Assembly (NCBI RefSeq): GCF_026210795.1
Contig: NC_089454.1
Coordinates: 3,038,001-3,102,000, forward strand
Source of the DNA: Rhizophagus irregularis
Taxonomy: Eukaryota > Glomeromycota > Glomeromycetes > Glomerales > Glomeraceae
DNA length: 64,000 nt
Reading direction: 5' to 3'
Positions 5,340 through 62,849 of this stretch are shown here, one piece after another (the stretch's first letter is position 1; every line of letters begins with the position of its first letter). Both the position numbers and the translations under genes were made by a program. Below the pieces are notes generated by a model that was not told the DNA's origin, made no database searches, and was given only the letters and a program-made list of their open reading frames with translations.

Positions 5340-8300
5340 ACTGAAAAGTAAGTGTTGGATTTTCTTTAATTACACGATTTTTCATATAATTCTAAAAAAG
5401 GATATACCTGATATAATGGGTTAAAAGTTTTGAAACATTAAGGAAGAATATAAAAACTAAACGATGTGATGCATAGAGAAGGAAATAATAATGAAAAATA
5501 AATTACATAATAAGAAAACAATGTTAAACTATGTAATTTTCTATGATAGTTAATATTTTAAACGCCCAAAATTTGTTTGTTCAATATATTGTAAATTCGC
5601 CTCGTAAAATCTCATAAAAAAAAACAAAAAAACCAATCAAATTAATCATAAAATTCTTTCTCAAGTAAATTTATCAAAAAATGAATTCAACAACTATTAT
5701 GTACCTCTAAACCAATTGTTATTGTTGCTTCTGAAGTAATAGAAAAACCTGGTAATCCTACAAACTCATGTTCTATAATGTAAAAGGAAAACTTTTCTAT
5801 GAGGTGAGGATGGTACAAACAACTTCGGTTATTACATGGCAAAACTTACAGAAAATTGGAGACCAATTTAAACCAAAAAAAAAATATATATATATATACA
5901 AAAAAAATACGGTCCACCTTATTTTTTCTTATCGATAATTATATTGATTATAGATTTTATCAATATGAATAATTTTTTTTTTATTTATTATAAAGAACAA
6001 GAAAAGGAAAGACAGATGAAACCCACGTCAATAATCTTTGCAAAATTATAATACATAATGAAAGAATTAAATTATCACTACATAACAGTTCAAATGCAAT
6101 ATCCAAAATATTATTCCAAATGAAAATTCATTTATAAATAGACAGTTTCAGTTTTAGAATTAATGATTCTTTTCTTCATCAACCAATTAATAATAAGCAA
6201 CACCCAAAACCAATACTGATAGTGACAATAAAAGAACCCATCTCTAATAATAATATTGACAACAATAAAAACAAAAAGAACAAGAAAAGACAGACAAAAC
6301 CCCACGTCAATAGCGACAACACCACCAATCAATGATAGTGACTCAGTGTTGCAAAAGTTTGTCCAAAACTATCAAAAAAATCTGTTCAAACCTAGAAAAA
6401 CAAAAAACCAAGACTCGCGCCACCAGTTGAAACGGATGAACCAAAACAAGTAAACGCTAAAATTTTTATAGTAGTGATAAGAGAAAAGGATGAGAATATT
6501 CAAGAGACAAAAGAAAATTATCAGCAGAAGAATAAAGATTAATGTTAATTAATTATAGTTATAATATTTCTTTCATTTCTAATATTAGAGGGCTTGCCAT
6601 TTTGGTAATTTTCAACAGATATTAGTTCCGATTTGACATCATTCTAGCAAAAATTATGATGAAATTAAAAAAAATACTAGTTTTTTTTTACAAAACTTAG
6701 TTTACATGAAAATTGTTAAAGTTCACCGGTCGGTGGCGATGGACACCATACCAGCATTATGATGTACTTTTGGCCAGAATTAAAAAATCTAATTAAACAC
6801 TGGCCGACATTACATTGTAATTTCACCACTTGTAACCGTCACTATTCGTGATATTTAACAATACCCAGTTTACTTACATTTTAATGTATATTAGTCCATT
6901 CAAACAATAGAATTTTTTTTTAATTGCCACTTAAATGGTTCGTGATGTCTACATAAGTCCAATGAAAAATGTAAATCAGTATCAGCAGTCACTGCCACGT
7001 GAACAAATTCAGAAAACTTAATTCTGTAAATCCTAATCCTAATAAAAAAATATGTACGACGATCAATCATCCAGAAATTTATTATTTCGGGTTTTTTTCT
7101 TCTATTTTACAAACTTTTCTGATTTTTTATGCGAAAAATTCGAAATTATATCTACATTATATTTGGCGAGTTGTTATTTGTTAAATAAAGACCGCATACT
7201 CGATTTGTAAATGATAAACGTTATACAACATCAGTATGTATTACATTAATATAATTGGAACTTAATGGTAAAATTAATAGAGGTAAAATTTGAGGAATTC
7301 AACTACCCCGATTAATTCTTAATTCTTTAGAATACTGATTATACAATATAATAAATTCTTTTTTTGTTTGTTTCAAAACGCAATATACTTTAGTAAATTT
7401 AATTTTATGAAAATTATAACGAAAATCCACGTTAAAATTTTTTTCGAACGACAAAAACATTTGTTGCGCCACAAAATATAAAATCGATTGATGTTTCGAA
7501 TATTAGAATCGAAACTTGAGTAACTATTATTTCATCATTATTTTTTAAGAAAAAGAAAATGATTCTTTTCTTAAAAATACAGTAATTTACCTAAATTTGT
7601 TTAATTTGTTTTTTATTGATTATTATTTTTTTTTCTTTGATAAGATTGATAAGTAATGAAAGCCCATACTTCATTTGGTTTGATTATTCTTTTTTTTTAT
7701 TAAAAAAAAAACCTATTTTCATACAAAAAGATGATTAGTAAACGCCAATATGCATTAGATTTCCGAAATGTAACATTTTTTTTTTTGATTAAAAAGAAAA
7801 ATAAAAATTATTAATAAATTGTCATTTGAGAACTTGCTAGAACATACGTTAGCATGATAAGATTTTGATAGTTCGCATTTTTGTTTATGTCGCAAAAAAA
7901 AAAAATTAATAATAATAATTAAATTTACTTGTAAAATTATTTCGTCATTTAATTTAAAAATTTAAAATTTGATTAATAATAATATAAAAATAGATTCTCT
8001 ATTAATTATCCCTTTTACAGAATTTAATTACTTGATAAAGTTGTATTCGAACGCCTTTGACGATCGTATTGTTTCAATGTGTAATTTTTTTAGAAGCCTA
8101 GAACGAACTTATGGAATCTCTTTACCATACTTCGTTTACAAACCAAAAAGGAAGGTGACGTCACGCTTTTATATTATCACTAAGATCTGCGGCGGATTAT
8201 ATTGTAAAAAAAATTTGATCTTTATAATAATTATTATCCTCTTCTTTAACCATTAGTTCTTGCAGTGTTATATGGGAAAATGTTTCACGTTCAGCCTGAA

Positions 8301-13514: not shown

Positions 13515-14840
13515 TTAAATCCTAAATATACTCAAATCTTCAGATCTCACTGCTTCAGTTACATCCACAATTACATCCGAATTTTCACTAGTAAAATTAT
13601 GTATGCAACTTGCATGATTTGCTTGTGGGTGAGATTCAGTATTAAGATTGTTATGCCCAATTGGTGCATTCATAAATTCCATAATGTTGCTTTTTAATTC
13701 TTCATCAATATCGTTAATTTTCTTTCCATAAGGAAGAATAATCCATTTTCCAATAATATTTAAAACCTCTTTAGAAGATGGCCTTTTTAACGGATCTTTA
13801 TCCCAACATTTTCTCATCAAATCTATATAACATTGTGGAGTATTTTCAATAATTTTAGGACGCTCTTCCTCTTTACAAATACTTAAACTAAGTTCAAGAT
13901 CATGTGCTCTATTATTAAATGGTGGAACTCCAGATGTAAATTCCCACATAATCATGGAAAAGCTATATATATCACTAGCTGGAGTATAAGGATAAGATCT
14001 TATATTTTCGGGTGCGATAAATGGTAAAATTCCATAAATTTCATTTTTTTTTAAAATTGATTTTATAGATTGACATAATCCTAAATCACTAACATAAACT
14101 TTATCTACTTTATTTTCTTCATTTTCTTCGTCATTTTCATCTTCTTTTTTATTCTTATGATATAAAATATTGCCGTCATGAAAATCACGATGAATAAGCT
14201 TTTGCTTATGTATTTCATTAAGTCCAGAAATAATTCTATACAACATATGTAATTTTTGTTTCCAATTATATTTGACTATTTCTTTTAAATTACTTCTTAA
14301 ATTGCCTTTGTTTGCATAATCCATTACTACTAATACTTTAGGTGTAGCATCTTTAGGTATAGCATCATCATTAGGTATAATATCATTTGGTATGTCATCA
14401 TTTGGTATAACATTATTAGGTATATTAGCAGCATTAGGTTTAGCAGGTTTAGCAGGTAAAGGTGTTGTATTTCTTGTAAATCCATATAAATTAATAATTT
14501 CAAATGAATTTGAGCAACTTCTATGATATTTCCACTATAAAAACAAATATTAATATATAGTGAATAAAATAGATTAAATTAAAAATTAAAATAAATAATA
14601 TATTATTATCATACTTCATTTAAAAATTCATTTAAATTTTCATCATTTTCTTTCAACCCATTGAGACATTTAAGAGCTACTTCTTTACTTCCATTTTTAT
14701 TTGTCCAAATAGCTTTATATATAGTACCAAATCCTCCTTCATTAAGATATTCAACATTATTAAATTGATCATAAGGGATCCACTTTAAATCTTTTTCGAG
14801 AATGAATTTATCTATAATTTTATCTCCACTTTTTCCAAAC
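13515..14840 (-). CDS. TKL-like protein kinase, catalytic exons
   Basis: The two 3' coding exons of a kinase gene. Exon 14615-14840 starts in the third base of a codon and encodes FGKSGDKIIDKFI, a glycine-rich loop (LNEGGFGTIYKAIW) and the EVALK lysine. An 80-nt intron (14535-14614) follows, and exon 13515-14534 continues in frame with WKYHRSCSNSFEIINLYGFTR. Between this and the next strand is an unusual insert of about 40 residues built from IPND-type repeats. Then come MDYANKGNL, the catalytic loop HRDFHDGN, DLG in place of DFG (VSDLGLCQ), APE, SDIYSFSMIMWEF and a 60-70-residue tail. In the gene at 0.4-1.9 kb the same core is preceded by a Cys4 exon. Here the 5' side is instead the long triplet-exon array. 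Probable active kinase; the phenylalanine-to-leucine change in DFG is tolerated in many kinases. Confidence 0.85.
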
Positions 14841-15017: not shown

Positions 15018-18000
15018 TATTTAGCAATACTCTAGAATTTGTAGTAAAATTTATATTAAATTAAAAAAAAAGATTGTAAATTTATACTTACTCTAAATTT
15101 AAATAGAAATTTAAATAATTTAATCAGACTTGGTCTATGTACGAATAATATCAAATATGTCCTAAAATTAATGTAACTTACCAACTAATACAATAAGTCG
15201 TCAATTTTTTAAAAAATCAGTAAACAAAATTATGAACAAATATTACTTAAGTATATAATAATAGATTAAATAAATAATGTAATAATGTATAACTTACATT
15301 CTAAAATAAGTTAACAAAAAATATCATTAGTTAAAAATATACAAATATAAATACATAATAATAAAATTATTATAAATAACTTACTTTCTAGTATATTATT
15401 AAATAATTGTACAAATAAAAATTTTAATTAAATTATATGTAAATAATATATAAATATAATGATAAAATAAAATAAATAAAGTATAACTTACTTGCTATAT
15501 TATTAAATAATTTTTTAAATAACGAATTTAATTAATTTATAAATATATAGAAATATATATCATAATAATAAAATTCAATAAATAATATATATATAACTTA
15601 CTCACTATATTATTAAATATTAATTTTTTAAATAAAGAATTTAATAAATTTATAAATATATAATAATAAATTCAATAAATAATATATAACTTACTCGCTA
15701 TATTATTAAATAATTATTTAAGTAAAAATTCGGGTTAGTTTGAATTATACAAGTATAATACAAATATATAATAATAAATGACTTACATCCTAGGTTATTA
15801 ACAGTTGTTAAGTAATTTTTTAAATAAAAATTTAGTTAGTTAAATTGTGTATATAAATATTATATGAATTTATAATAGTAGAATAAAATAAATGAATCGC
15901 TTATTATTAACAAATAACTGCCACTTATATCATATTCTTTTGTTTTTACTTTTAGCTATAAGTATATTCCGAAAAAGAATTTTTAAATATAAAAATCTTA
16001 TTTATCACATAATTAATTTCTTCCAAATAATTATTACAATTTTAGCCAAAATTATATAATCGTATAATATCAGTGATTATTACCACTATAAATAACAAAT
16101 TTTAAATAAATAACTTACTTTCTATTAATGAAATAAGTAATTTAGTTAGTTTAATTATATAAAATTATTGTAAATATTTAAGTTTAATTATATAAAATTA
16201 TTGTAAATATTTAAAATATTAAATGAGTGACTTACTCCCTATAATAAATAAAGAATTTAGTTAAATTAAATATTACACAAATATATAATAATAGAATTAA
16301 ATATAACTTACAATCTATAGTACCAAATAATTATTAAGCAAAAAATTAGTTATAGTAGCTTAAATATTATTTAATATATAAAATAAATAACTTACACCCT
16401 AAAATATTTGAATAATTTATCAAAAAATTTAGTTACAGAGATTATAATATATAATATAAAATAATAAATAACTTACAGACTATATTATTAAATAATTTTT
16501 TAATAAAAATTATGAAAATTTAATTCAAGTTAGTTTGAATATTTTACAAACATATAATGATAAAATTTAATAAATAATTTGTAACTTACAAACTAATATA
16601 ATAAATTAATTAGTGAGATATTTAATTAGTTTAAATATAATATAAATAATAAAATTAATAAATAATTTATAACTTACTCGCTATATTATTAAATAATTAT
16701 TTAAAATAAAAATTTAATTAGTATAAAAATAATATTATATAGAAAATACATAACAAATTATATAACTTATAATCTATATTATTAAATCATTTTTTAAATT
16801 AAAGAATTTAATTAGTATGCAAATAAAATACAATATGTAATTATAAAATTAAATAAATGACTTACTATTAAAAAATTATATGCAATAAATAAATAATAAT
16901 TTATATTTACAAGCTATAATAAATTACCAAATAATTTTTTATAAATAAAATGTTTAATTAGTTAAATTATATATATAAAGTATTATATAAATATATAATA
17001 ATAATAGAATTTAAATTTTATTTGTACTTACCAGCTATAATAAATTATTAAATAATTATTTAAGTAAAAAAATTTAGTTAGTTTAAATATTATTTAGTAT
17101 ATAATAAATAATAAAATTAAATAAAATATTTACTCCCTATATAATCAAATAATTATTTAAATAAAAAATTAATTAGTATAAAACATATAAATAACATATA
17201 ATATTAATTAAATAAATATTATATAATTTGTAAATTGTAACGTACAAACTGTAATAAAATATTAATAATTTTTTAAATATTAGTTTAAATTATATACAAG
17301 TAATATATAATAACAAAATCAAATAAATAACTTATAACTTACTAGCTAAATTTTTTTAAATAAATAATTATATATTAATTAGTAATAAAAAATAAAATAA
17401 TTAGTATAATTAATTTATATTATATAATAAAACCAAATAGTTAATAACTTACAAACTATAATAATAAATTATAAAATATTTTTTTAAATAAAAAATTAAT
17501 TAGTATAAAACATATAAATAATATATAATATTAATTAAATAATTTGTAAATTGTAAACTTACGAACTGTAATAAATTATTAGTAAATTTTTAATATTAGT
17601 TGAAATTATATACAATATATAATAACAAAATCAAATAAATAACTTATAACTTACTAACTAAATTTTTTTAAATAAATAAAAAATAATTAGTTTATTAATA
17701 TACAGTATATTATATAATTATATTATTAGAAAATTATACAAATAATTTATAACTTACCAGCTATATAATAATTTTCAAATAAAAAAATTTAGTTAGTTTA
17801 AATATTATATAAATACGTAAAAAATAAAATAGCTTACATCCTAAAGTATTAAAAATAAAGAATTTTGGTTAGTTTAAATATTAAATAAATATAATAATAG
17901 AATTAATAAATAACTTATAATTTACCAGCTTTAATAAATTAACAAATGGTTTTTAGCAAAAAAAATTTAATTAGTTAATTATAACTAGATATTATATAAA

Positions 18001-18756
18001 TCTATAATGATAAATTGTGTAATAAATACTAACTCACTATATTATTAAAATAAAAAAATATAAAAAATCAATTAATATAGATATTATATAGTTATTTAGT
18101 AATTAAGTTAAATAAACCAATAACTTACTGCCTATATTATTAAATAATTTTCAAATAAAATTTAGTTAATATATATATATATATATGTTATATTACTGTA
18201 TATAATAATACATACCAACTATAATAAACAATTACATAATAATAATAATATTAGTTTGATCATATATAAATATTATATAAATATATATAATAAGAATTAA
18301 ATAAATGATTTTATAACTTACAAACTATATTAAATTCTAAATAAGTTTTTAAATAAAATTTAGTTAATTTAAGTTATGTATAAATATTATTATGAAAATT
18401 AAATAAATAACATTTAACTTACTAGCTACTATAATAAAAATTTAGTTAGTAATTTGTTATAAAAATATATAACAAGTTAAATAAATAACTTACAAGCTAT
18501 ATAATTAAATAATTATTTTAAATATTAATATAATTAACACAAAATAAAAATATAATAATAAACTAAATAACTTACTTTCTATATTATTAAGTAGTTTATT
18601 AAGTAAAAAATTTAATTAATTTAATTTAGTATATAAAAATTCCATAAAAATAAATTAAAAAAATGACTTATACTACTTACCACCAGCTATAAAAAATTGC
18701 AAAATAATTTTAAATAAAAAGTTTAGTTAGTTTATATTAAATACAAATATTAGTAT

Positions 18757-18838
18757 TATTTATTTCATGGGAGTTAGGAATAATAGGGTTTTTTCCTGAA
18801 GAAAAAAACCCTAATGTTCTCCTTCCCATAAAATAAAT
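18757..18838. mobile_element. Foldback hairpin inserted in the array
   Basis: Two arms of about 38 bp facing each other around a short loop. The left arm starts ATTTATTTCATGGGAG and the right arm ends with the near-complement CTTCCCATAAAATAAAT; the inner pair is AGGGTTTTTTCC/GAAAAAAACCCT. The sequence differs from the surrounding array units, so it is a foreign insertion or decayed MITE. Confidence 0.55.
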
Positions 18839-18844
18839 GGGTAA

Positions 18845-19034
18845 TCCCCTAGAGCGTGTCACTCATTCATTAAATATTAACTATTTTAACTATTTTAGAC
18901 TAATTCCCAGCTAACTATATGATGACGGGAAATAAGTAAATTAAGATTTCCGGTCATTTACTCAGCTAATCACTCGCAATTTTTAAAAATTAGTATGAGG
19001 GTGATCATGAGTGACACTTAGTGCGACAGGGGGA
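18845..19034. mobile_element. MITE inserted in the array
   Basis: Imperfect terminal inverted repeats of about 25 bp (left CCCCTAGAGCGTGTCACTCA, right end in complement CCCCCTGTCGCACTAAGTGT), with a markedly less AT-rich interior. It breaks the regular spacing of array units. No clear target duplication. Confidence 0.55.
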
Positions 19035-19454
19035 TATACTGTAAATATATAATAATAAACTGAATAGTAAATACTAACCTCCTAACTTGACAGCTATAAT
19101 AAATTATTGAATAAATTTTAATTAAACAAAATTAATAATTCATAACTAGTAGTCAGGAAACTGTCGGTAGGCGGTTTAAATTATAAATTAAATGCAAATA
19201 TTATATAATAATAGTAATTTACCTCCTATATCAATAAAAATAAAGAATTCAATAAGTATAAATTATATGTAAATATTAATAAATAACTTGTAACTTACCA
19301 ACTATAATAAGTTACCGAATAATTTTTAAATAAAAAATTTTTAGTTTAAATTATATGTAATAAAATTAAATAATAAACTTATACTTTACCAACTATGACA
19401 TAATTTTTTAAATAAAAGTTAATTAATTAAAATTTATAAGTATATAAAATGAAA

Positions 19455-19770
19455 TAATTTATTTCTCACCCGGGTGACTCCCCCCCCCTGAATTTAATAT
19501 ATAAAAATGACGTCATGCATGATCATTTGCCGACCATTTCCAACGTAATTTTTGACGAAAAAAAATTTTTTTTAAAATAAAAACTTAATATAAGCTTCGT
19601 ATAATAATTGCCTTCAAAATCATGACTTATAGGTAATTTTGACTGCTCTACAAATTTACTTTAACCTTAAGAAAGGTTATAAATACCATTTTTGACATTT
19701 TGACAATTTATGACTTGGGGTGAGGAACATCAAATCTCACCCGGGGTGAGGAATAAATTCACCCTAATAA
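19455..19770. mobile_element. MITE with TTTATTYCTCACCC termini inserted in the array
   Basis: Inverted termini built from TTTATTTCTCACCCGGGTGA on the left and its near-complement at about 19738-19765 (CCCGGGGTGAGGAATAAA), about 310 bp in total. A related single end (TTTATTTCTCACCTAGGGTG) occurs at about 60278, so the family is dispersed. The exact ends are uncertain. Confidence 0.55.
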
Positions 19771-22700
19771 AATTAATAATTTATAACTTACGACCTATAA
19801 TAAATTTTAAAATAATTTTTAATTTGATTATGATATGATATAATGATATATATAATTATATAAATAACTTACTTACTACATAATTTAATAATAAAAATGA
19901 TTAATTAGTTTAAATTATATTTATAAGATTAAATAAATAACTTATAACTTACCAACTATAACAACTTATTAATAAAAAATTTGATTAATTTAATTATGCA
20001 AATATTATTTAAATACATAATAATAGAATTAAATAATATTTTATAACTTACTGACTATAATATTAAGTTATTATATAATTAGTTTAATAAATACTTATAT
20101 ATAAATATTATATAAATATAGTAATAAAGTCAATAAATAATTTATAACTTACGAGCTATTAAATAATTTTAAAAAATTTAATTTATACATATTAATTATA
20201 AATATGATTTAATTATTTAAATAATTAAATAAATAATTTATAAATAATTTATAACTTACATGCTATAATAAATTTTTAAGTAAAAATTTAATTAGTTTCA
20301 ATTAGATATAAATATATAAAATAAAATAAAATAAAATAAATATATAACTTACAAGCTATAATATATTATCCAAATAATTTATTAAATAAAGATTTAAGTA
20401 ATTCAAATATTATATAGATATATAAATAATAAGATTAAATAAATAACTTATAACTTACTAACTATAAAAGAATTCCAATTCATTTTTTTTTAAAAAAGTA
20501 AACTTAATTATGTATAATATTATTTAAATATATATAAAAATAAATAACTTACCTCCTATATTATAAATTATAAATAAAAAATAATTAGTTTAAGCCATAT
20601 ATAATAAAATTAAACAAATAATTTATAACTTACCAACTATAATAAATTACCAATAAATTTTAATTAATTTAAGTTATATTTATATATTATAAGTATAATT
20701 AAATAAATAATGAACTTATGACTTACCAACTAGTATAATAAGTTATAATTATTAAATAAAAATTTAGTTATTTTAAATTATCAGTTATATATACATTTTA
20801 TAAATATATAATAAAATCAAGTAAATAATATAACTTACCAACTATAATAAATTATTAAATAGTATAAATTTAGTTAGTTTAAATTATATATAAATATTAT
20901 ATATTTATAGATAAATAAGTACTAATTCATAACTTACGAGCTATTATAAATTATTAAGTAAATTTAATTAATATAAATTATATTTTTGTATAATAATTAA
21001 ATAAATAACTTATAACTTACCAACTATAATAAATTACAAATAAAAAAATTTAATTGTTAAGTATTATTTATAAATAGTATACTAAAGATATATATTAACA
21101 AAATTAAATAAATAACTTATAACTTACCAACTATGAAAATAAATTATAAAAAATAAAAATATAATTAGTATTTTATATATAATAATAAATTAAATACATA
21201 ATATAACTTACCAGCTATATATAATAAATCACAAATAAAAAAATTTAATTAATAAGTATTATTTATAAATATAATAAAGGCATAATAATAATAAATTGTT
21301 AAAAAATTTTACTCCCTATATTGAATAAAGTTAAATAAAAATTAATTGTATAAATATTATAATAAATATATAAAATAAATCAAATGAATAGTAATCTATA
21401 GCTTACAATCTAAAATAATTACCAAATAAAAAAATTCAATTAATTTAAGCTATAATAAATATTATAAAATATATAATAATAAAATTATATAAACAACTTA
21501 CTTCCTATACCATTAAGTGATTTTTTGAATAAATAAATAATTTAATTAGTTTAAATATTATAAGTGTAATAATAAACTAAACAAATGATTTATAACTTAC
21601 GGTCTAAAATAAATTATTAAATAATGTTTTAAATAATGGATTTAATTAGATTAAAATATATAAATATAATAAAGATTTAATAAAAATCAAACAAATAACT
21701 TACAATCTAAAAAAATTACCAATAATTTTTTAATTAAAAAATTTAATTAATTCAATTATTTATAAGTACAATATAAAGGATTTAACTCTAATATAAATAT
21801 AATAAAATAACTTACATTCTATTAAAATAATTGTTAAATAATTTTTTAAATAAATTAGTTTAAATTTATCCATATAAATTAAAAATATAATAATAAATTA
21901 AATAAACAACTTACGTCCTATATGATTAATTTTTAAATATAATTTGAAAATTTAATTAATTTAATTATATAAATAATATATCATTTATATAATAATAGTA
22001 ACTTACTTCCTATATTATTTAAATAGTTAGTTTAAATTATAATAAAATTAAATAAATAATTTATAACTTACCAGCTTTAATAAATTACCAAATAATTTTT
22101 AAATAAAAAATTTAATTAGTTTAAATTTTATATTAATTATATTATATAATATATAATAATAAAGTTAATTAATAACTTACCAACTATAATAAATTACAAA
22201 TAAAAAAATTTAATTGTTAAGTATTATTTATAAATATAATAAAGATATATATTAATAAAATTAACTAAATAACTTATAACTTACAATCTAAAATAATTTT
22301 TTAAATAAATAATTTAGTTAGATTAAGTAAATATTATATAAGTATTTTATAATAAATCAAGTAGTAAATAACTTACCATCTATAATAAGTTATGAAATAA
22401 TTTTTTAATAAAGAATATAGTTAATTTGAATGTAGTATCTTCACATTGGCAAATTGATTGATTATAATAAATATTAACAGTAAATAACTTACACCCTAAT
22501 ATATTATTAAATAGTAATGATTAAATAAAAATTTAATTAGTGTAAATATTATGCAGATATTTAATATAAATAATATATAATTTATAACTTACACCCTATA
22601 TTATTAAATAAGAATTAGTCAGTTAAATTATAAATAAATATTATACAAGCATGTAAGAATAATTTTAAATAAATAACTTACATGCTATATTATTTATATT

Positions 22701-23040
22701 ATTAATAAATTGTTTAATAAAATTTAATTAGTTTAAATTATTCATATATATTGTACAAATAATAATAGAATAAATAAATAAATTATGACTTACCAGCTAT
22801 AATAAATGAATTTATAAGTCAATTTAATATATAAATATAAATAAATATTACATAAATATATAATATACAAATAATTCATAACTTACTATTTCTATAATCT
22901 ATGAATAGTTTTTAATAAAAATTTAGTCAATAAAAATTTAAACTAAAATAAATATATAAAAAATAACTTACTCCCTATATTATGAATAATTTAGATAAAG
23001 TTTAATTAATATAAACATTAGTATTTAAATAAAATAAATA

Positions 23041-23170
23041 ATGGTGTAGTTGGCCGAAAAATAATTAGCCGCAGCGTGATCCGGAGGCGTAGATTGTCGT
23101 GAAATTCCAGGAGATTTTCTGCGATTAAACCGGGTTCGATCCGGCTCCGTTTTTCGGCTAACTACACCAT
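23041..23170. mobile_element. TA-flanked MITE inserted in the array
   Basis: Terminal inverted repeats of about 21 bp with one mismatch (ATGGTGTAGTTGGCCGAAAA on the left, TTTTCGGCTAACTACACCAT on the right), flanked by TA on both sides. The interior is GC-richer and contains GGGTTCGATCCGG, which resembles a pol III B box, but no tRNA cloverleaf folds from it. Confidence 0.7.
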
Positions 23171-24000
23171 TATTATAAAAATAAAAATATATATATACTG
23201 TATTTAATATTAGTAAATAATTTATAACTTACACCCTATATTATTAAATAATTATTTTAATAAAAGAATTTAGTTAGTTAAGTTATAAATAAGCAACACA
23301 AATATATAGTAATAGACAACTTACAATCTATATTATAAATAAGAATCTAGTTAGTTCTAAATTATAAATAAACAAGCATGTAATAATAATTTAAATAAAT
23401 AACTTACTTCCTATATTATAAAATATTTTTTGATAAAAATTTTGTTAATTTAAATTATACTTAAATATTATATAAATGTATAATATTAAAATTAAATAAA
23501 TAATAACTTACTTTCTATATTATTATTAAATAATATTTTAAATAAATAATTTAATTAATTAAATTATATATAAATTTTATATAAATATGTAATAATAGAA
23601 ATAAATAATTTACTTCCTATTATATTATTAAATAATTATTTTAAATAATAATTTAATTAGCTTAAATTAAATATAAATATAACACAAATATATTTAAATA
23701 AATAATTAACTTACCAACTTATATTAATAAATATTGAAATAAACAAATAAATAAATAAAGAATTTAATTAGTTTGTAATATAAATATGACATAAATGTAC
23801 AATAATGAAATTAAATAAACTTACAATCTAAATAAATTATTAGATAGTTTTTTAAAGAGAATTAATTATAAAAATATAATTACAAATATGTAATAAAAAA
23901 ATTAAATAAATAGTTTATAACTTACAATCTAAATTATCAAATAATTTTATAAATAAAGAATTTATTAGTTTATGTAAAACATGCAATAATATAAGAACTA

Positions 24001-24185
24001 GCATCTCCGTTTTTGTAGGCGCGGTTTTATTAATAACACATGACTTGCAATGACATTTATCAATGTACACGTGACTGGCGAGAACGCGCAAGTATATTTA
24101 TCTCAGCGACTTTGTTTTTTTAGTGGTCTAATGCCTATTTGTCACGCCCGTAATGAAAAACCCACGCTTACAAGAAGGGAGCGCA
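24001..24185. mobile_element. Diverged MITE inserted in the array
   Basis: Diverged terminal inverted repeats: the left end GCATCTCCGTTTTTGTAGGC matches, in complement, a right end that reads GCGCTCCCTTCTTGTAAGCG. The interior is much less AT-rich than the array and contains no coding frame. The boundaries are approximate. Confidence 0.5.
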
Positions 24186-24658
24186 TAGAAATAAACAAAT
24201 AACTTATAACTTACCAACTAAAATAAATTATCAAATAATTTTTAAAATAAAGAAATTAATTAGTATGCAAATATTATATAAATATGTAGTAATAGAAATA
24301 AATAAATAACTTACTCTCTACATAATTAAATAATTTTAATAAGTAAATAAAGAATTTAGTTCAAATATTATAAAAATAGTATGTAATAATAAATTGAATA
24401 AATGACTTATAACTCACTTTCTATATATTACATAATTTTTTAAATAAAAATTTAGTTAGCTTATATTACATGTTGACTCAACATTATATAAAAATAAATT
24501 ATATAAATATATATAACTTACCAACTACAATGAATTAACCAAATGATTTTAAATAAATTTAGTCAAATTTGAAACATATAGGTAATAGAAATATAAATAC
24601 ACATGACTTACACCCTGTAATTTATTAATTATTAATTAGTTAAATATAAATATTATTA

Positions 24659-24876
24659 CAGTCAGTTCTCGATATAACGAACTCGAAATTTTCGCATCAC
24701 GTGACATTTAACTATCAAATACGTCAACCAGCCTAAACAACAAAATGTTGGAAATTCAAAGGAAAAGGTAACAATAACAATGAAATAAGCGACAATTAAA
24801 CTTTTTAAATTATTTGCAATAATCATAACGAATTTGAAGTGAAGGCCGGAGGGTTCGTTATATTGAGAGTTGACTG
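24659..24876. mobile_element. pogo/Fot1-like MITE inserted in the array
   Basis: 218 bp with inverted ends CAGTCAGTTCTCGATATAAC on the left and, in complement, CAGTCAACTCTCAATATAAC on the right, flanked by TA at 24657-24658 and 24877-24878. CAGT…CGATATAACGAA ends and TA duplications are typical of pogo-type Tc1/mariner elements (family knowledge). Too short to encode a transposase. Confidence 0.8.
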
Positions 24877-25384
24877 TACAAATATATAATATATAAAATT
24901 GAATGTTTAACTTACAATCTGATCATTATTTAAATAAAAAATATAATTAGTTTGAATTAAATGTAAAATATTAAGTATAAAGGGTTAAATAACTTACCAT
25001 CTATTTTTGAAATATCGTTATTTTTCTTTTCATTATTAAATTGATTCTCATTATCATTGTTATTATTATCATTGTTATTGTTATTCTCTTTAATATTAAA
25101 TAATTATTTAATAAAGGATTTGTTATTCGAATATCATGTAAGATACAATAAAAAATAGATAAAATGATAACTTACCAACTGTAGTTTTATTAATAAATTC
25201 AATTGTAAAATATAATAAAAATAAGTAATTCAATATTATTAATCAAATTACAAGATAACTTATTGACTTACGATCTAAAATGGTTAATAAAAAAAAATTT
25301 ATAGTTAGTTTAGACATGTGTATCATATAAGGTATAATAGAATTTAGAAACTTTTAATTATTGTTGTTTTTATTTAATAATTCA

Positions 25385-25554: not shown

Positions 25555-25674
25555 CTATAGATTCCTTAGTACTTGCTGAAACCAGGTTTAATATATTGCA
25601 AATTTGTTTTAAAATTTTAAATTTATATAAATATTCATGATATGTGTTTTACCTTCGTCAATACTATGAGCCAT
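25555..25674 (-). CDS. Candidate first two exons of the array/kinase gene
   Basis: A candidate start ATG at 25674 opens a 22-nt exon (25653-25674, MAHSIDE plus one base) ending at a GTAAAA donor. A TTTCAG acceptor then opens a 21-nt exon (25555-25575) that stays in frame (ASTKESI plus one base) and ends at GTAAAT. The leftover single base sets phase 1 for the downstream triplet array. In that phase the array contains no stop codon by hand count. The exons are tiny and have no homology support, so the start is tentative; the gene could begin elsewhere. Confidence 0.4.
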
Positions 25675-27458: not shown

Positions 27459-28701
27459 AAAGGAAAAGTGATCATCCTCACATGATCACTACAGGTTATA
27501 AGTACAGGATCTCTGAGAAAAGAAAATGATCACCCCCACGTGATCATTAGAAGTTACAAATAAAGGATCGACGAAGTTAAGGAATTATAAAAGTAAAAGT
27601 TCTAAGTCTTGGTTAAAAAAGAATTTAAGGTGTATTAACGTTAAATTTTAATAAAATAAAGTTAGATATTTTAAAGGATACGTGAAAATAATGGTTACCA
27701 AGGTAAAAGGTATTAATTTGGGTGAGTATGACCATAAATGTATAAAGAGATAATGTTAAAAATTAAATTTTTGATCTAACTTGACCACCGGCTGATAAGT
27801 CAATGAAAAATTATTATTATAATAATTTTCATACATATGAACCAAATATGTATGGTAGTAATTGATTATCAAGGGAAATGCGAGGCTAATCAAGTTAGAA
27901 GGGGTTTTAATAGAATATTGTAAATAAGTTCCATGAATTAGGGATTAAAAATAATTTTTATAAATAATTGAGGTTAAGTTAAGGATAAAAAGTGTACCCA
28001 AAAACCGACACTATAAATACGATGGTAGGGTAATTCTGTGTGAACTCAATTGAGGTTTTCTGTGTGATCAATTGAGAATAGTTCTGTGTGAGCTTTTTCT
28101 GTGTGAACTCAATTGAGGTATTCTGTGTGATCAATTGAGAATAGTTCTGTGTGAACTTTCAAAAACAATTCTGTGTGAGGGTACCCAAGAAAATCATGAT
28201 TAACGTTAACAAAAATTAAAATAATGTTTGCTGGACAAATATATTCAAGGAAAGTTATTAAAAATTAATAAGGATATAAATGATAGGAGATTTTGTAGCG
28301 TAGTAAAATTATATAAAATGTCAATACAGGTGTCGAGATTATTAATTAAAGATTGTCAAAGCACAGTAAATTTTAGGATATAATAGAATTAGAGGCGTAG
28401 TAGGAGCATATGAAAGAGCGAGATTTGAATCTCCCACTTATTAAATGAATTGTTGACACCGAGGAAAGATACATCAGTCTTGGAAATACAACAAATAATC
28501 GGACAAATCAAATATGGATTCACACTTCAACCTTAGGTTGGAAAATTTTAAGAAATATAAATTTATTTGTACAAACCTGTAAACTACCATACTCAGTAAT
28601 GAACAAATGAGGTAAAGGCAAGCCCAGTATAGGTCAAATAAAATATAAAAAGAAGGATAAAAAGTAAAAGATGTGAAAATTTTTAGAGAATTTTATTAAA
28701 A
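27459..28701 (+). other. Long noncoding leader with tandem repeat
   Basis: About 1.24 kb between the primer site and the Gag start, without a supported frame. At about 28031-28182 it carries reiterated TTCTGTGTGA units alternating with ACTCAATTGAGG and ATCAATTGAGAATAG, arranged as two copies of a roughly 60-bp block plus partial units. The CAATTG palindromes could form stem-loops, for example in packaging or translation control (inference). Confidence 0.7.
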
Positions 28702-31700
28702 ATGGAATGGTACCATGTTTGGAACGCTGAATATATAAACCATAAACGAAAACATGACCTAGGAGTGATAGAACCAGAGGAATGTTTAGCATGTGAAATA
28801 TGTAACCCAATAGAAAGAGAAGTATCAGCGGCATTCAAGAAATTTTGGGATGCTTTATTTAAATTCGAGGATACAATACTAATGTACAATAATGTAACAC
28901 ATAAAGAATTATTGAATTTATTAAGTATGGACAATAGAGAAAGGGAGGATACAATACATAAGGGAAAATGTAGGAATATAGTAGATAGAATAATTGAATC
29001 AATAAGGTACAGACAACAACCAAAAATGAAGGAAAAAGGATTGAGAATAATAATTGTAGTAATTGTAAGGGATTGTATTGAAGGAAACTTGGAAAATGAA
29101 GTATTTGATCGATTAATAGGATGTCCAGAAATAATGGAACATGGATATATTTTAGAAGATTGGGATGTTGAAAATAGATTTCAAAAATTTTGGGAATGGT
29201 ATAACACAATATTAGAAAATGATACGAAAGTAAAGCATGTACAACCAAATGCAATAGTAGAATTTAGAAAGTTGTTATACATGGAAGAAAGAATAGCTGA
29301 ATTAGGAGGATATGAAATGTTTGCCTTAATACAAGATATGGAATACGAAGAACCTGAGTTATCACTAGAGGAATATAAACGGAGGTTGGGTAAATATAAA
29401 CAAAAGACAATACAAAGATTTATTGACACCAAACAATTTACAAGGGAACCTGAGGACCCAGAAAGTGATAGTCCTGAAAGTTATGAATTAGAGGACAGTG
29501 ATGGTAGTATACATTATGAAATAAAAATAGAGGATGATGTCGAATGGACAGTGGAATCATTAAAAAGAAAAATTGAAGAAATGGGTGGAAGGTTCACCGA
29601 CAAAGATATACAAAGAATGTGGGACCTAAGGATAAGGATAGAATTGATATTAACAGAGGACTTTTTAGGTACATTTTTCGAATTAATGGGACTAAGTGAT
29701 AAAAAATTAAAAGATGAAATAAATGAATGGTTGACAAAAGAAACATTAATATGTGGAAATTGTAGAAATAGAAAGTTACCTGATATGATAGCAGACATTG
29801 GACAATGTAAAAATTGTGAACAAGAAGTATTATTAGAATTAAAGGACGACTTAGAAAAACTAGGGTACGAATTAAATGTGTCAGAAATAGGGAGAATAAG
29901 AGAATTCAGGATAAGCAATAGTATAATATTAACAACGGAATTTATGGAAAAATATCTCCAGGAAATTGATACGAATGACAAAGAATTAAGGATAAAATTA
30001 TATGAATGGATAAATGAAAATACCACATTTTGTGATGAATGTGGAATAAGATGGATAAACAATAAATTTGACGAAGGAAAAACCAAGTGTAGGGATTGTG
30101 AAAATGACGAAAATGAAATTAATATCAGGGTTAAAAGATTAAAACAAATATGTGATGATAATAAAATAGGAATAACTAATGGAGAGTTATTGAGGTTAAT
30201 CAGTATGGGATATACTGATGGAGAAATATTGGATCAAGAATTTATTGAAATATTCCAAGGAAATAAAAATGAAATGGAGAAAAATTTAAGGCGAATATTA
30301 GATAAATTTCTAAAACAGCAAGCTGGAATTGAGGATAGTGAAAGTAGTGGAAATGAATCTGATAATGAAAAATCTGATGGATCTGAAAAAGAATCAGATG
30401 GATCTGGAAAAGATGGAGAAATTTTAAATCCAAATGAAAGTGATAACAATGAAAATTTTGAAGAACCTTATGAAGAAAACATTATAAATAGACCTGGTTT
30501 TGACTCAAGTGAAAGTTCAGAATCAAATTCTGAGGATAAAAGTGAAATATCTGATTATAATATAGAAAATTTATTTGAAACACCTATAACACCACCGATA
30601 CCACCAATCCCACCAATAGTACCAATAATTATGGGAGCAACAAGAGCTGAAGTAAGGGAAGATGTTAGAGCGGCTTTACTAGCAACAACAGGACATGATA
30701 TAGGAGGTAATTGGGCTGGATTAGTCACAGCCAACCCATTAGCAAATGCAATTGAGGATGCGGGAAATGTAGCTGGAGGAATAATTAGTATGCCACAATT
30801 TTATGGAAAGGAAGAAGAAGATGTAAACGATTGGGTAAGACAATTTGAAACAGCATTTACTGCTATAGGAAAAGCAGCAGGAGTAAATGGAGCTAGACAA
30901 GCAGCAATGGCAGCTACCTGTTTGAAAGGTGCAGCAGCACAATGGTATAATGAAAAGAAGGAAGCAAACAATGGTCATTTGGTAAATTGGCAAGATAACG
31001 ATAATGATAATGATTTAAAACATAGGATTAAACAAAGATTTACCAGGGAAGATGTTAGAAAAAGGAAAATGTTAGAATTAAGGAAAATAACACAAGGAGT
31101 AAATGAAAATGTTGAGGCATATACGATAAGGTTTAGACAAATATTAAGGATAGCTACCAGAGGCCATGCATTAGATGATGAATTACAAGTGGATAATTAT
31201 ATCGAAGGATTAACACCAACATTGGGATATCAAGTCAGAAGACAAAACCCAGCAAATTTAAATGATGCAGTGAATACAGCAAGAAGAGAAGAGGAAGCTA
31301 CTAATGAATTAATAAGAAAGACACGTGGTATATCAGTTAGTACCCAAAGAAAAGGAATCGATATACAAGATGACAAGCCAAAGAATATATTTGAAAAACC
31401 ATTGGAGAAAAATTATGAGGATGACCTTGCCGACATGTTTAAAAAATTAGAGGTAAAACTAGTAAATCAACTTGGAGGGCAAAAGAGACCACCAAACAAT
31501 AATAATAGACAAGGACCACCACCTCGAGCATGTTATAATTGTAAACAACCAGGACATTATGCAAATGAATGTAGGGTAAATAATGGTCAAAGAAACTATG
31601 GAAGACCAAATAATCAAAATTATAATAGAAGATCAAATAACTATAATGGAAGACCAAATAACTATAACAGACCACCAAACCACCAAAACAATAATCGAGG

Positions 31701-32289
31701 ATTCAATGTAGTGGAATATGATAATTATAATGACCAATATGACCAATATGATTATGATAGTCAGGATTATCAGGATAATTATGATCAAGGATATAGTTAT
31801 GACGACCCGTATTATCAAGATAATGATGTAACATTTAACCATGTTGATCAGGATTTTTATATTGGTGAAAGACAAACAAGGAGTAATATAAAAAATAGGT
31901 CAAGTGATCGAGATATAGATATGGAAATTGATCGAGAACAAACACGCAGAAGAAATGATAAATATGCAAGCCAAGAGGAAAGGGCAGCAGCATTACCAAA
32001 AAGAGGATTCACTGATGAAAGTCTGAGGAAAGCACAAGAAGCAAGGAGAAATAATAATACATGTGGAAATTGTGGACGAAGAGGTCACTATGCAAAACAA
32101 TGTAAAAATGAACGTGTTGAAGGTATTCATAGGACAAGCGCATTTCAAAGAAATATACCAAAATATAACGTATTAGAAGATATGAAAAGTACCAGAGCAA
32201 ATGCAACTTTTTCACAAATTATAGATATGAGCCCAGAACAAAGAAAAATATATTATGAAGGAATGAGAAGGTATCCACAAACAGATTGA
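28702..32289 (+). CDS. gag: Gag polyprotein, with large N-terminal extension
   Basis: Structural protein of the retrotransposon, 1195 residues, far longer than typical Ty3/gypsy Gag (about 300-500). The C-terminal half holds the conserved Gag core (about 697-880, MPQFYGKEEEDVNDWVRQFE … AAAQWYN … RFRQIL) and two CCHC zinc knuckles (CYNCKQPGHYANEC at 944, CGNCGRRGHYAKQC at 1121) flanking an Asn/Tyr-rich linker. The N-terminal part of about 640 residues has no family I recognise. It contains three related blocks, two of which end in paired CxxC motifs (from C351 and C444), then an acidic Ser/Glu-rich stretch and a Pro/Ile run. The frame ends with TGA immediately followed by CTA, and the same frame continues into protease. 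Confidence 0.93.
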   Translation: MEWYHVWNAEYINHKRKHDLGVIEPEECLACEICNPIEREVSAAFKKFWDALFKFEDTILMYNNVTHKELLNLLSMDNREREDTIHKGKCRNIVDRIIESIRYRQQPKMKEKGLRIIIVVIVRDCIEGNLENEVFDRLIGCPEIMEHGYILEDWDVENRFQKFWEWYNTILENDTKVKHVQPNAIVEFRKLLYMEERIAELGGYEMFALIQDMEYEEPELSLEEYKRRLGKYKQKTIQRFIDTKQFTREPEDPESDSPESYELEDSDGSIHYEIKIEDDVEWTVESLKRKIEEMGGRFTDKDIQRMWDLRIRIELILTEDFLGTFFELMGLSDKKLKDEINEWLTKETLICGNCRNRKLPDMIADIGQCKNCEQEVLLELKDDLEKLGYELNVSEIGRIREFRISNSIILTTEFMEKYLQEIDTNDKELRIKLYEWINENTTFCDECGIRWINNKFDEGKTKCRDCENDENEINIRVKRLKQICDDNKIGITNGELLRLISMGYTDGEILDQEFIEIFQGNKNEMEKNLRRILDKFLKQQAGIEDSESSGNESDNEKSDGSEKESDGSGKDGEILNPNESDNNENFEEPYEENIINRPGFDSSESSESNSEDKSEISDYNIENLFETPITPPIPPIPPIVPIIMGATRAEVREDVRAALLATTGHDIGGNWAGLVTANPLANAIEDAGNVAGGIISMPQFYGKEEEDVNDWVRQFETAFTAIGKAAGVNGARQAAMAATCLKGAAAQWYNEKKEANNGHLVNWQDNDNDNDLKHRIKQRFTREDVRKRKMLELRKITQGVNENVEAYTIRFRQILRIATRGHALDDELQVDNYIEGLTPTLGYQVRRQNPANLNDAVNTARREEEATNELIRKTRGISVSTQRKGIDIQDDKPKNIFEKPLEKNYEDDLADMFKKLEVKLVNQLGGQKRPPNNNNRQGPPPRACYNCKQPGHYANECRVNNGQRNYGRPNNQNYNRRSNNYNGRPNNYNRPPNHQNNNRGFNVVEYDNYNDQYDQYDYDSQDYQDNYDQGYSYDDPYYQDNDVTFNHVDQDFYIGERQTRSNIKNRSSDRDIDMEIDREQTRRRNDKYASQEERAAALPKRGFTDESLRKAQEARRNNNTCGNCGRRGHYAKQCKNERVEGIHRTSAFQRNIPKYNVLEDMKSTRANATFSQIIDMSPEQRKIYYEGMRRYPQTD

Positions 32290-32301
32290 CTACAAGAATC
32301 A

Positions 32302-32829
32302 ATGAACAACATTGAAGCAGAACACTTAACTGCATTAAGGGGTAAATTAATAATAAACCAAGAATTAAAGGACGTAATGTTTGATACAGGAGCAGCAGTA
32401 AATGTAATAACTAGTCAGATAATGGATGAAATGGACCTAAAAATTGAGGAACCAAGTACAGTAAGATGTGTGATGATAAATGAGGATAAATTAGCATCTA
32501 GGGGTACCACGACAATATACATACAATTTGGGGATAAGGAAATACCCATTAAGGTTGAAGTAATTGATTCAGGAAAAAACGAAATTGTGTTAGGAAATGG
32601 AGTATTAGATATGTTCAAAGCAAATATAGATTACACAGATAAAACAATAATAATTAGAATGAATGATGAAACTATGGATATACCAGTAAAATACACACAA
32701 AGGACCATTAAAGGGTTTGAAGAAACATTTGATGAAGAGGAAATATTAGAAGAATTATACCAGGATGAATTGTATAACATATATGAAGATGACCATGAAG
32801 GTCAGGAAGATGAAAATTTTAAAGTATAA
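32302..32829 (+). CDS. Retropepsin-like aspartic protease
   Basis: Aspartic protease domain that would process the polyproteins. Active-site motif FDTGAAVNVIT with the catalytic Asp at residue 28, then IVLGNGVLDMFKANIDY as the second conserved strand. The 175-residue frame is the same as Gag's and begins 12 bases after the Gag stop, so stop-codon readthrough would give Gag-Pro. The C-terminus is acidic. It ends at 32829 and overlaps by 7 nt the frame that contains RT, which lies at -1. Confidence 0.9.
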   Translation: MNNIEAEHLTALRGKLIINQELKDVMFDTGAAVNVITSQIMDEMDLKIEEPSTVRCVMINEDKLASRGTTTIYIQFGDKEIPIKVEVIDSGKNEIVLGNGVLDMFKANIDYTDKTIIIRMNDETMDIPVKYTQRTIKGFEETFDEEEILEELYQDELYNIYEDDHEGQEDENFKV

Positions 32830-34304
32830 GTCTTGGTCAGAATGATACTGAAGAGACGATAAAGAAGCACAAAAGTGACCATGAAAAATTTACTGAAAAA
32901 TTTAAAGTAGGGGACATAACCAATGAACAAAAAGGTAAATTAAAAGTATTAGTAGAAAAATATAAGGATATATTTGAGTACGATGGTGAAAAATATAATA
33001 GGACAAACCTAGTAAAACATGAAATCAGATTAAAAGGGGGTACTGAACCAATAGCCCAAAAGAGGTACAAAGAAAATGATGAAAAAGGTAAATTCATCAG
33101 AAAAGAGGTTGACGAGATGTTAAAATTGGGAAAAATTAGAGAATCTAGAAGTCCATGGTCTTCACCAGTGACTTTAGCAGGGAAAAAGTCAGGAAATTAT
33201 AGATTTTGCATCGACTATAGAAAATTAAATAAAGTTACAATAACAGATGCATATCCATTACCGAGGATTGATGAACAATTAGAAAGAATAAGTTCAGGAA
33301 AATGGTTTACCAGTCTAGATTTAGCATCAGGGTTTAATCAGATAGAAATGGCTGAGGAAGATATTGAGAAAACAGCATTCATATGCTCAGCAGGATTATA
33401 TGAATATAATGTCATGCCATTTGGGTTAACAAATGCGCCTGCAAGTTTTCAAAGGTTAATGGATAAAGTATTAAAGGAGTACCTAAATGAATTTGTGATA
33501 GTATACATTGATGATATAATGATATATTCGGAAAACTTTGAAGACCACCTAAAACACATAAAGTTAGTGTTAGAAAAATTAAAGGAAGCCAGTTTAATAC
33601 TAAAGTTAAAGAAATGCATATTTGGAAAAACAGAAATAGAATTTTTAGGACATGTAGTTGGTAAAAATGGATTAAAACCAAGTCCAGGAAAGGTTGAAAA
33701 GATACAAAAATTAACAGCACCTATAAATATAAAAGGTGTAAGGTCAATATTGGGGTTATGTACGTATTATAGAAAATTTATTAAAGATTTTTCAAAAATA
33801 GTAAAACCAATAACATCTTTATTGAGAAAAGATGAAAAGTTTGAATGGGGCATCAAACAACATGAAGCATTAGAAATATTAAAAAGGAAATTAACCGAAG
33901 AACCGGTGTTAAGACAACCAGATTGGTTAAGGAAATTTATATTAATTACAGATGCTTCAGGAATAGGATTAGGGGCAGTGCTAGCTCAAAAAGATGATAA
34001 AGGTCAAGAATATGTAATAGAATATGCCAGTAAAAGTTTAAACAGGACAGAACAAAGATGGCCAATAACCGAACAAGAATGTTATGCAATTGTATGGGGA
34101 ATACAACATTTCCATAAATACTTGATCAATAGAAAATTTGAGGTAGTAACAGACCATGCAGCTTTGAAGGGATTAATGACTGCAAAAGTACCAAAAGGAA
34201 AGAGATCAAGATGGGTCATGGAATTAGAACAGTATGATTTTGAAATAACTCATAGACCAGGAAAAGAAAATAAAAATGCAGATGCCTTATCAAGGATAAT
34301 ATAA
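32823..34304 (+). CDS. pol: Reverse transcriptase and RNase H
   Basis: The frame is open from 32823; the first ATG is at 33117 (395 residues), but conserved RT N-terminal sequence (HEIRLKGGTEPIAQKRYK) lies upstream of that ATG, so translation probably enters by a -1 shift from protease. RT motifs: PWSSPVTLAGKK, RFCIDYRKLNK, FTSLDLASGFNQI, MPFGLTNAPASFQ, catalytic YIDDIM (residues 130-133 counted from the ATG). The RNase H part starts ILITDASGIGLGAVL (Asp 279), followed by EQECYAIVWGI and VVTDHAALKGL. Stop at 34302. A second frame at -1 is open from 34274 across this stop. Confidence 0.93.
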   Translation, partial: SISLGQNDTEETIKKHKSDHEKFTEKFKVGDITNEQKGKLKVLVEKYKDIFEYDGEKYNRTNLVKHEIRLKGGTEPIAQKRYKENDEKGKFIRKEVDEMLKLGKIRESRSPWSSPVTLAGKKSGNYRFCIDYRKLNKVTITDAYPLPRIDEQLERISSGKWFTSLDLASGFNQIEMAEEDIEKTAFICSAGLYEYNVMPFGLTNAPASFQRLMDKVLKEYLNEFVIVYIDDIMIYSENFEDHLKHIKLVLEKLKEASLILKLKKCIFGKTEIEFLGHVVGKNGLKPSPGKVEKIQKLTAPINIKGVRSILGLCTYYRKFIKDFSKIVKPITSLLRKDEKFEWGIKQHEALEILKRKLTEEPVLRQPDWLRKFILITDASGIGLGAVLAQKDDKGQEYVIEYASKSLNRTEQRWPITEQECYAIVWGIQHFHKYLINRKFEVVTDHAALKGLMTAKVPKGKRSRWVMELEQYDFEITHRPGKENKNADALSRII

Positions 34305-34579
34305 ATAGACGGGTAAAAGAGTTACTTTTCAAAAAAAAAATGGAACAAGTGGTAAGAAATACAAATCATAAAATAAAGGATATAATCGAAAATTTAGAAG
34401 GTATAACAAAGGAATTAAACAGGATAAATTATAACTATAAATTCAAAGCCAAAAATTTTGAAGATAGTGAAGAAAGACCATTAATATTGGAAACTCAAGA
34501 GGAAATATTACAAATAGAGGTGATATTAAGTAAAGTAAACAAGCTAAAATTATCAGAATTATGTAAAAATGGGACCTAA
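34274..34579 (+). CDS. Short coiled-coil frame between RNase H and kinase-integrase
   Basis: Frame open from 34274 (overlapping the end of RT-RH by 31 nt); the first ATG is at 34340, after a run of ten A's, giving 79 residues. The peptide is rich in Lys, Glu, Asn and Ile with heptad-like spacing (KIKDIIENLEGITKELNRI), so a short coiled coil is likely. It overlaps the next frame; ATG 34569 lies before its TAA at 34577. It may serve as a linker in a Pol polyprotein made by frameshifting, or as a reinitiation relay. No homologue is recognised. Confidence 0.5.
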   Translation, partial: KCRCLIKDNINRRVKELLFKKKMEQVVRNTNHKIKDIIENLEGITKELNRINYNYKFKAKNFEDSEERPLILETQEEILQIEVILSKVNKLKLSELCKNGT

Positions 34580-36116: not shown

Positions 36117-36351
36117 CAGAAAAATAATTAAAGAACATACCTTTGGAATTGGAGATAAAATATTACTTTATGATAAGGCCAAAGCACAACAATTATCTGG
36201 AAAATTGGAATCAAAATGGTTGGGACCATTTTACATTCATGAAATACTACCAAACGGAGCCTACAAAATTAAAGATATTAAGGGTGTAATCAAGAAAACA
36301 CCTGTAAATGGAGAACTATTAAAGACTTACCATACACCGATGAGTAAATGA
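36061..36351 (+). CDS. Integrase C-terminal domain in a shifted frame
   Basis: 96 residues from ATG 36061, overlapping the kinase-integrase frame by 56 nt at +1. YHDRK, then FGIGDKILLYDKAKAQQLSGKLESKWLGPFYIHEILPNGAYKIKD, then KTPVNGELLKTYH is the usual C-terminal DNA-binding (GPY/F-type) region that follows the core in Ty3/gypsy integrases. It should be continuous with the preceding protein. The shift lies in an A-rich stretch (about 36080-36105), so it could be an indel, an assembly error or programmed shifting. Confidence 0.8.
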   Translation: MKPKEQILKSQIKQKEYHDRKIIKEHTFGIGDKILLYDKAKAQQLSGKLESKWLGPFYIHEILPNGAYKIKDIKGVIKKTPVNGELLKTYHTPMSK

Positions 36352-62837: not shown

Positions 62838-62849
62838 TTTTAATTTTAA

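Follow-up and report, generated by a model that had tools for sequence, protein, structure and literature searches.

Among the systems closest to the one considered here, the bicycle genes of aphids, and the megacycle gene in particular, are described in the account cited here as possessing many small exons of a single phase, with more than 100 microexons in megacycle (PMC9168663). As summarized in the cited plant reports, the Arabidopsis gene APC11 contains a tiny exon (PMC4674806), exons of 1 and 3 nt figure in a plant survey, and the 1-nt exon of VPS55 has a conserved GTRAGT donor, exons of this kind being often missed by annotation (PMC8831610). A regulated microexon has been reported for Xlr2 of Trichoderma, functional microexons being, according to the abstract of that 2024 study, previously undescribed in filamentous fungi (PMC11121469). 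The present analysis concerns a stretch of 64,000 nucleotides of the Rhizophagus irregularis genome, hereafter the window (positions 3,038,001 to 3,102,000 of contig NC_089454.1, assembly GCF_026210795.1, forward strand), whose minus strand carries a long tandem array of intron-like units, for the most part separated by just three bases, ahead of a protein kinase domain. R. irregularis is an arbuscular mycorrhizal symbiont, i.e. a soil fungus living in plant roots. Its kinase repertoire is reported to be expanded, with 2,533 members (PMC10234402). Judged from sequence, the array very probably constitutes the 5' coding part of a kinase gene, the triplets of which would be joined in order, in phase 1, by serial splicing.

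An array of three-base exons upstream of a kinase domain

The repeating unit consists of about 98 bases with the appearance of a fungal intron (a GTAAGT start, an ACTAA-type block and a TATAG or TTTAG end), followed by three bases and the next GTAAGT. Between positions 15182 and 25274 of the window (15182..25274, minus strand, as are all features of this gene), a simple AG-NNN-GT pattern recovers 85 sites with a median intron of 98 nt; one of these sites, 25002, closes a longer exon. All 72 copies of the strict form, AGNNNGTAAGT, that the window contains lie in the array, and there is none on the plus strand. The initial annotation of this DNA, made from the letters alone, had reported just such tandem units with 3-nt spacing on the minus strand, and these counts bear it out. 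It had also described exactly three bases in each of some 90 units. The 3-nt array is real, its purity is not: a 90-nt Asn-rich exon (24998..25087) occupies the slot of the third microexon without changing the phase, one unit is an irregular 5-nt AAATA (22887..22891; a 12-nt in-frame alternative can be made out by eye), donors have been lost at a few units (e.g. 16770 and 19091), and some introns contain inserts. The latter, which do not belong to the array, lie by eye at approximately 24660-24872, 23045-23170, 19470-19770 and 18750-19040; some apparently have inverted ends, and they resemble small mobile elements between microexons.

The first coding exon, ATGGCTCATAGTATTGACGAAG (25653..25674, 22 nt), ends in phase 1 and is of the same kind as that found in other array genes, and the second (25555..25575, 21 nt) keeps this phase. 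Downstream of the array stands a feature missing from the earlier inventory, a putative one-nucleotide exon, A, placed between AG and GTAAGT at 15092 (15092..15092), which would convert phase 1 into the phase 2 needed by the kinase exon. That exon (14615..14840) encodes the start of the kinase domain (FGKSGDKIIDKFILEKDLKWIPY...GGFGTIYKAIW...), and the last exon (13515..14534) the remainder of it, with HRDFHDGNIL and SDLG; the domain matches PK_Tyr_Ser-Thr (PF07714, E=2.6e-31) and PF00069 (E=2.3e-30), and both the HRD and the SDLG motif are present.

Exon boundaries were assigned by two parses. The first scored splice sites with no preference among exon lengths from 1 to 15 nt, its score tables having been trained on the 3-nt-spaced sites of these same loci; the second favoured exons of 3, 1 and 6 nt and made no use of frame information. 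In the window, the length-neutral parse returned 80 exons of 3 nt, two of 6, and one each of 15, 5 and 1 nt. The second returned 82 exons of 3 nt (one being the end of the 90-nt exon), one of 6 and one of 5 nt, plus the one-nucleotide exon; compared with the simple list of 85 sites, four units were omitted and three added.

Similar arrays throughout the genome

The array of the window, treated at first in isolation, is one of many. Pattern counts over 146.7 Mb in 32 contigs, with the reversed pattern serving as control, gave 2129 matches to TATAG-N3-GTAAGTTA versus 15 in the control. With the spacing set to 1-2 the same pattern gave 39 matches (control 44) and with 4-5 only 15 (control 38), and a looser form, TAG-N3-GTAAGTT, gave 4842 (control 541). 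Since the two 3-nt patterns match 219 and 434 of 657 parsed 3-nt exons, respectively, the number of such exons in the genome extrapolates to about 6,300-6,500.

In all, 24 arrays were parsed, 15 plus 9 more; six of the latter were picked for the stop test described below, and three had been taken earlier for other reasons. L026 and L033 are only partial, and an extended form of L026, termed BIG (91 exons over 10.8 kb), was excluded from the totals. L014, L015 and L023, which contain no array, were set aside, the short pieces L031 and L032 have array units but were left uncounted, and L034, L035, L037 and L038 lie outside the parsed set. Over the first 15 arrays the length-neutral parse found 652 exons of 3 nt, 14 of 1, six of 6, two of 15, and one each of 5, 10 and 12 nt.

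These arrays share an anatomy, which was read from individually displayed loci only. As a rule, a first exon of the type ATGGCTCA.AGTA..AAAG precedes a short second exon, a CTC-like microexon, often TTG, and the array proper, which on its 3' side often closes with CTT TTG and is followed by the one-nucleotide exon and then the kinase exon; in L009 and L028 there is no clear first exon within the stretch retrieved. A strict pattern for the one-nucleotide exon together with the kinase exon is found at 88 places in the genome (control 0), where the single base is A in 83 cases, G in 2, T in 2 and C in 1 (counted by hand), and replacing the one nucleotide by 2-4 nt leaves 0 matches genome-wide. 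The window copy is not among the 88 because its last intron, of 251 nt, exceeds the limit of the pattern. By the second parse, the last array exon is 1 nt long in 19 of the 24 arrays. One locus, L011 (G000:C1:2287001-2297000, minus strand), has a repeat-like insert in its last intron, between the one-nucleotide and the kinase exon.

Reading frame and order of joining

What would the triplets encode, and in what order would they be read? Phase 1 is reached at the end of the first two exons both in the window and in L013 (C1:4545001-4555000), the two loci checked, and the same phase is assumed for the other arrays on the strength of their shared anatomy. A phase-1 codon comprises the last base of one triplet and the first two of the next, so that a stop can arise only where a triplet ending in T meets one beginning with AA, AG or GA. 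When the order of triplets was shuffled inside each array (the parse being blind to frame), a marked depletion of such stops became apparent: the 15 arrays (676 codons) contain 1 versus a mean of 27.3 and a minimum of 15 in 2000 shuffles, and the 9 further arrays (330 codons) contain 1 versus 14.9 with a minimum of 5, which makes 2 versus 42 expected for the pooled 24 arrays (1006 codons). The array of the window alone has 0 versus 5.3, in agreement with the initial proposal that its triplets act as single-codon exons before a kinase, and the simple window list likewise has 0 stops in 84 codons; BIG has 1 versus 5.7 expected, and L012 and L043 are uninformative alone, since their shuffles expect no stops. 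In the off-frame phase 2, by contrast, 109 stops are found versus 100.6 in shuffles.

The depletion is moreover limited to direct neighbours. Among the 15 arrays, stop-making pairs number 1 versus 27.0 at i+1, 22 versus 26.4 at i+2 and 33 versus 25.8 at i+3, i.e. the effect is gone beyond the adjacent triplet, and the nine new arrays behave alike, with 1 versus 14.9 at i+1 and then 17 versus 14.5, 25 versus 14.1 and 11 versus 13.8. This argues that consecutive triplets are joined in order and translated, and we know of no mechanical reason, besides splicing and translation, for bases some 97 nt apart to avoid each other. Exons so far below normal size do have the length and the signals that splicing into mRNA would call for, and it is from the avoidance of stops that we infer their inclusion.

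The same values bear on a different use of the array, in which the triplets would be real exons serving mainly as cassettes, such that skipping would generate many kinase N-termini. Any skip of a 3-nt exon preserves the frame, and units with lost donors may indeed have to be skipped; from i to i+2 or further, however, there is no clear avoidance of stops, so that full inclusion is favoured over combinatorial skipping and the cassette model appears unlikely. The initial annotation had suggested that, if spliced, skipping subsets of the exons would yield a very large family of linker variants before the kinase; that this is what the array is for finds no support in these near-chance counts.

Full inclusion in phase 1 also has consequences at the downstream border. 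With the length-neutral parse, the two carried bases that the kinase exon needs are present on arrival in 12 of 15 arrays, the phase being wrong in the window, L025 and L026; the second parse removed the phase fault of L025 together with a stop in L016, and in L020 it gained four codons by treating the first bases of kinase exon 2 as a 12-nt exon. In the composites, exon phase is uniform, remaining phase 1 across the array and being closed by the one-nucleotide exon, with the 5-nt unit of the window as the exception. The three-base spacing, the frame, the order of joining and the shared anatomy can, in our view, be read directly from the genomic DNA.

Splice signals are retained while intron bodies drift

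Of 662 introns, 577 begin with GTAAGT and 528 contain an ACTAA-type block, versus 105 of 662 shuffled bodies. Their length has a median of 97 nt (quartiles 88 and 104) and is spread evenly over the three remainders modulo 3 (226/225/211). In the loci read, longer exons use GTAAAA, GTATAT, GTATGA and the like, and GTAAGT is the rule inside the arrays, presumably because tiny exons would need strong donors. In the window, the bodies of neighbouring introns have a median likeness of 67% (65 pairs) versus 65% in a pooled shuffled control, and yet donor and acceptor signals persist, as expected if, as the initial annotation held, the splice sites are maintained; in the 14 other arrays the median likeness ranges from 65 to 82%.

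Traces of how the units arose are still visible. Across the 15 arrays, adjacent introns are alike to a median of 75% versus 72% for distant ones, and 12% of adjacent triplet pairs are identical versus 6% of distant ones, which fits the earlier idea of birth by repeated duplication of the unit, as do the near-identical units of L033. That locus (G000:C7:1716801-1718300), a partial array of 10 triplets with near-identical introns and a repeated GGA, looks as if newly grown. The units have thus been born by duplication, their bodies drift, most of all in window-like arrays, and the signals and the 3-base spacing are retained.

Could the array nevertheless be a satellite-like duplication of introns that is excised as one large intron, with the splice-like signals as mere leftovers of duplication? 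Units do arise by duplication, and the array is missing from most related public gene models (see below), both of which such a scenario would explain. Against it stand the nearly randomized bodies in the window alongside persisting splice sites, the spacing held at exactly 3, the order of triplets that avoids stops in the predicted frame, and the break in frame that would follow in the window if the first exons, in phase 1, were spliced directly to the kinase exon, in phase 2. A plain satellite should decay evenly and conserve no coding frame, and neither is the case here; we consider excision as a single intron highly improbable.

Predicted products

Composite proteins were assembled for nine loci, L024 and L027 being left out. 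With the first parse, six of the nine are open from the array through the one-nucleotide exon into the kinase (L010, 402 aa; L012, 275; L013, 527; L018, 442; L020, 414; L021, 470), and addition of its first exons brings L013 to 542 aa. Stops interrupted the first-parse composites of L016 and the window; by the second parse, and with the 5-nt unit excluded, the window composite is 542 aa long.

Among the 22 arrays whose start is covered, 16 have D-W or N-W among their first residues (e.g. LDDWF), and several array peptides end in P-F ahead of the kinase exon; the middles vary in both length and sequence. Common to the window and BIG are L-x-DWFEK-x-x-YFG and hydrophobic middles, whereas charged and aromatic residues seem more frequent in the others. 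The hydrophobic middles of the window array and of G000:C4:820001-839000 might, unlike those of the other parsed arrays, span a membrane. The kinase of L013 has HYS instead of HRD and may therefore be inactive.

Public gene models and the evidence to the contrary

Protein searches yielded 16 public matches for L013 and 113 for the window composite, 128 proteins combined; R. irregularis, R. clarus and R. diaphanus are among the names shown. The kinase-start motif was found in 117 of the 128, and 57 of these 117 begin no more than 17 residues before it and 97 no more than 45. Most related public models thus omit the array and begin at or near the kinase exon; the model of L013 itself (P0001, same assembly) starts at an internal Met of that exon. 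Among the 16 + 10 proteins inspected in full there is a handful of array-like stretches, two of which, P0058 (L036) and P0023 (L039), were compared with their genomic loci. P0023 and L039 have identical first exons and a very different reading of the array, which fits fast change; divergence between isolates or an error in the model are possible as well. A search of the genome with the array peptide and kinase start of L013 gave no intronless copy or retrocopy among 150 scored of 2324 candidates; C14, C12 and C7, the candidates reaching furthest into the array part, are further arrays and not joined copies.

The omission of the array from these models is one of several points that weigh against the proposed reading. 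P0058, from the same strain by name, speaks for it in so far as 29 of its residues correspond to array triplets of L036 in genomic order, with two triplets omitted (by our own count); it reads them, though, in phase 0, entering via a 23-nt exon and leaving via a 5-nt piece that replaces the one-nucleotide exon, and P0050, P0073 and P0083 have long runs of G, I, L, M and R that resemble P0058 by look alone. One stop is retained in each of L026 (also as BIG) and L040, and in L009 kinase exon 2 is interrupted by a stop. The kinase acceptor used in the composites was chosen with its open frame in view. The 5-nt unit and the lost donors suggest that the window copy may be partly decayed. Finally, we know of no precedent for a single transcript including so many 3-nt exons.

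P0058 brings up a further alternative, namely that the arrays are read in phase 0, with a 5-nt AGTAA exon in place of the one-nucleotide exon. Besides the 29 residues of this protein, a second GT after GTAA at the one-nucleotide site in the displayed loci speaks in its favour. However, the upstream exons of the window and L013 end in phase 1, P0058 requires its 23-nt exon for the change of phase, and read in phase 0 the 15 arrays contain 5 stops, the window accounting for three (a count that shuffling cannot alter, the codons being the triplets themselves), whereas phase 1 shows order-based avoidance of stops. It is conceivable that a gene finder permitting 3-nt but not 1-nt exons might produce a model such as P0058, and we give the phase-0 alternative hardly any weight.

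A proposed mode of splicing, three bases at a time

How would the phase-1 reading be realized? At 3 bases exon definition is implausible, as the two sides of the exon cannot be bound at once. Instead, each intron of some 97 nt would be recognized across itself, from its 5' GTAAGT through the ACTAA-type branch block to the TATAG or TTTAG end. Each splicing event would then set the joined upstream coding part directly before the next GTAAGT, such that the spliceosome would move serially along the array in a recursive-like manner, retaining three bases per step. The arrangement typical of recursive splicing, here AG-NNN-GTAAGT, is indeed found, as far as geometry goes. The one-nucleotide exon would finally shift phase 1 to phase 2, the kinase domain would follow, and the product would be a kinase carrying at its N-terminus a variable stretch of about 20-90 residues, which often opens with an L-x-DWF-like motif.

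Serial splicing of this kind, a role for the segment in the protein and its hypervariability are all interpretations drawn from these patterns, as is the proposal that arrays lengthen and shrink by gain or loss of whole intron-plus-codon units through unequal exchange, by one residue at a time and with the frame kept; change by whole codons would be the likely evolutionary gain. A broader and distinctly more tentative view is that one intron per codon lets recombination between like introns alter single residues, giving hypervariable kinase N-termini, perhaps for recognition of self or of a partner, that are produced by serial three-base recursive splicing.

Other features of the window

An Rfam search of the window returned nothing at gathering scores. 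A second kinase gene (467-1965, minus strand), apparently array-free, has a Cys-rich region and a WTSGN motif upstream of the kinase. Retroelement-like reading frames, spread over several frames, occupy 28687-36351 (plus strand); the integrase frame among them (34572-36116) opens, unusually for an integrase, with a P-loop region resembling AAA_28 (E=1.6e-5, which misses the Pfam cut-off) and goes on to H2C2 and rve integrase domains. A long reading frame at 61392-62915 (minus strand) weakly resembles an F-box, at a score short of that cut-off.

Relation to known microexon systems

Among the titles and abstract openings listed from the open-licence literature, bioRxiv excluded, none reports arrays of single-codon exons, in Rhizophagus or elsewhere. 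If the interpretation is correct, this one fungal genome contains some 6,000 single-codon exons, hidden from most related public models, and the N-termini of many kinase models may need correction. About 90 consecutive 3-nt exons would also put intron definition and serial splicing to a stringent test, because a 3-nt exon is too small for two-sided recognition, and a gene so built could evolve one amino acid at a time through unequal exchange of introns.

With recursive splicing, as outlined in the source cited, the arrays would have in common that a 5' splice site is re-formed at the junction after a prior step (PMC6224609); the difference is that here three bases would be kept at each of many serial steps, the order of which is inferred. 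The plant exons of 1 and 3 nt, those of APC11 and VPS55 included, are, as reported, alike in size, in the conserved donor of the VPS55 exon and in being often missed by annotation; they are, however, isolated, whereas here up to about 90 stand in a row, and one type of one-nucleotide exon recurs at at least 88 places in a genome. Xlr2 of Trichoderma likewise concerns a microexon of a filamentous fungus, with a single regulated microexon there and arrays here. The likeness to the aphid bicycle and megacycle genes, so far as the cited description extends, lies in many small exons of one phase within one gene and in fast-evolving families (PMC9168663); unlike in those genes, nearly all exons here are one codon long, they stand before a kinase, the host is a fungus, and thousands are estimated per genome. 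We would place the arrays of R. irregularis at the extreme end of microexon genes.

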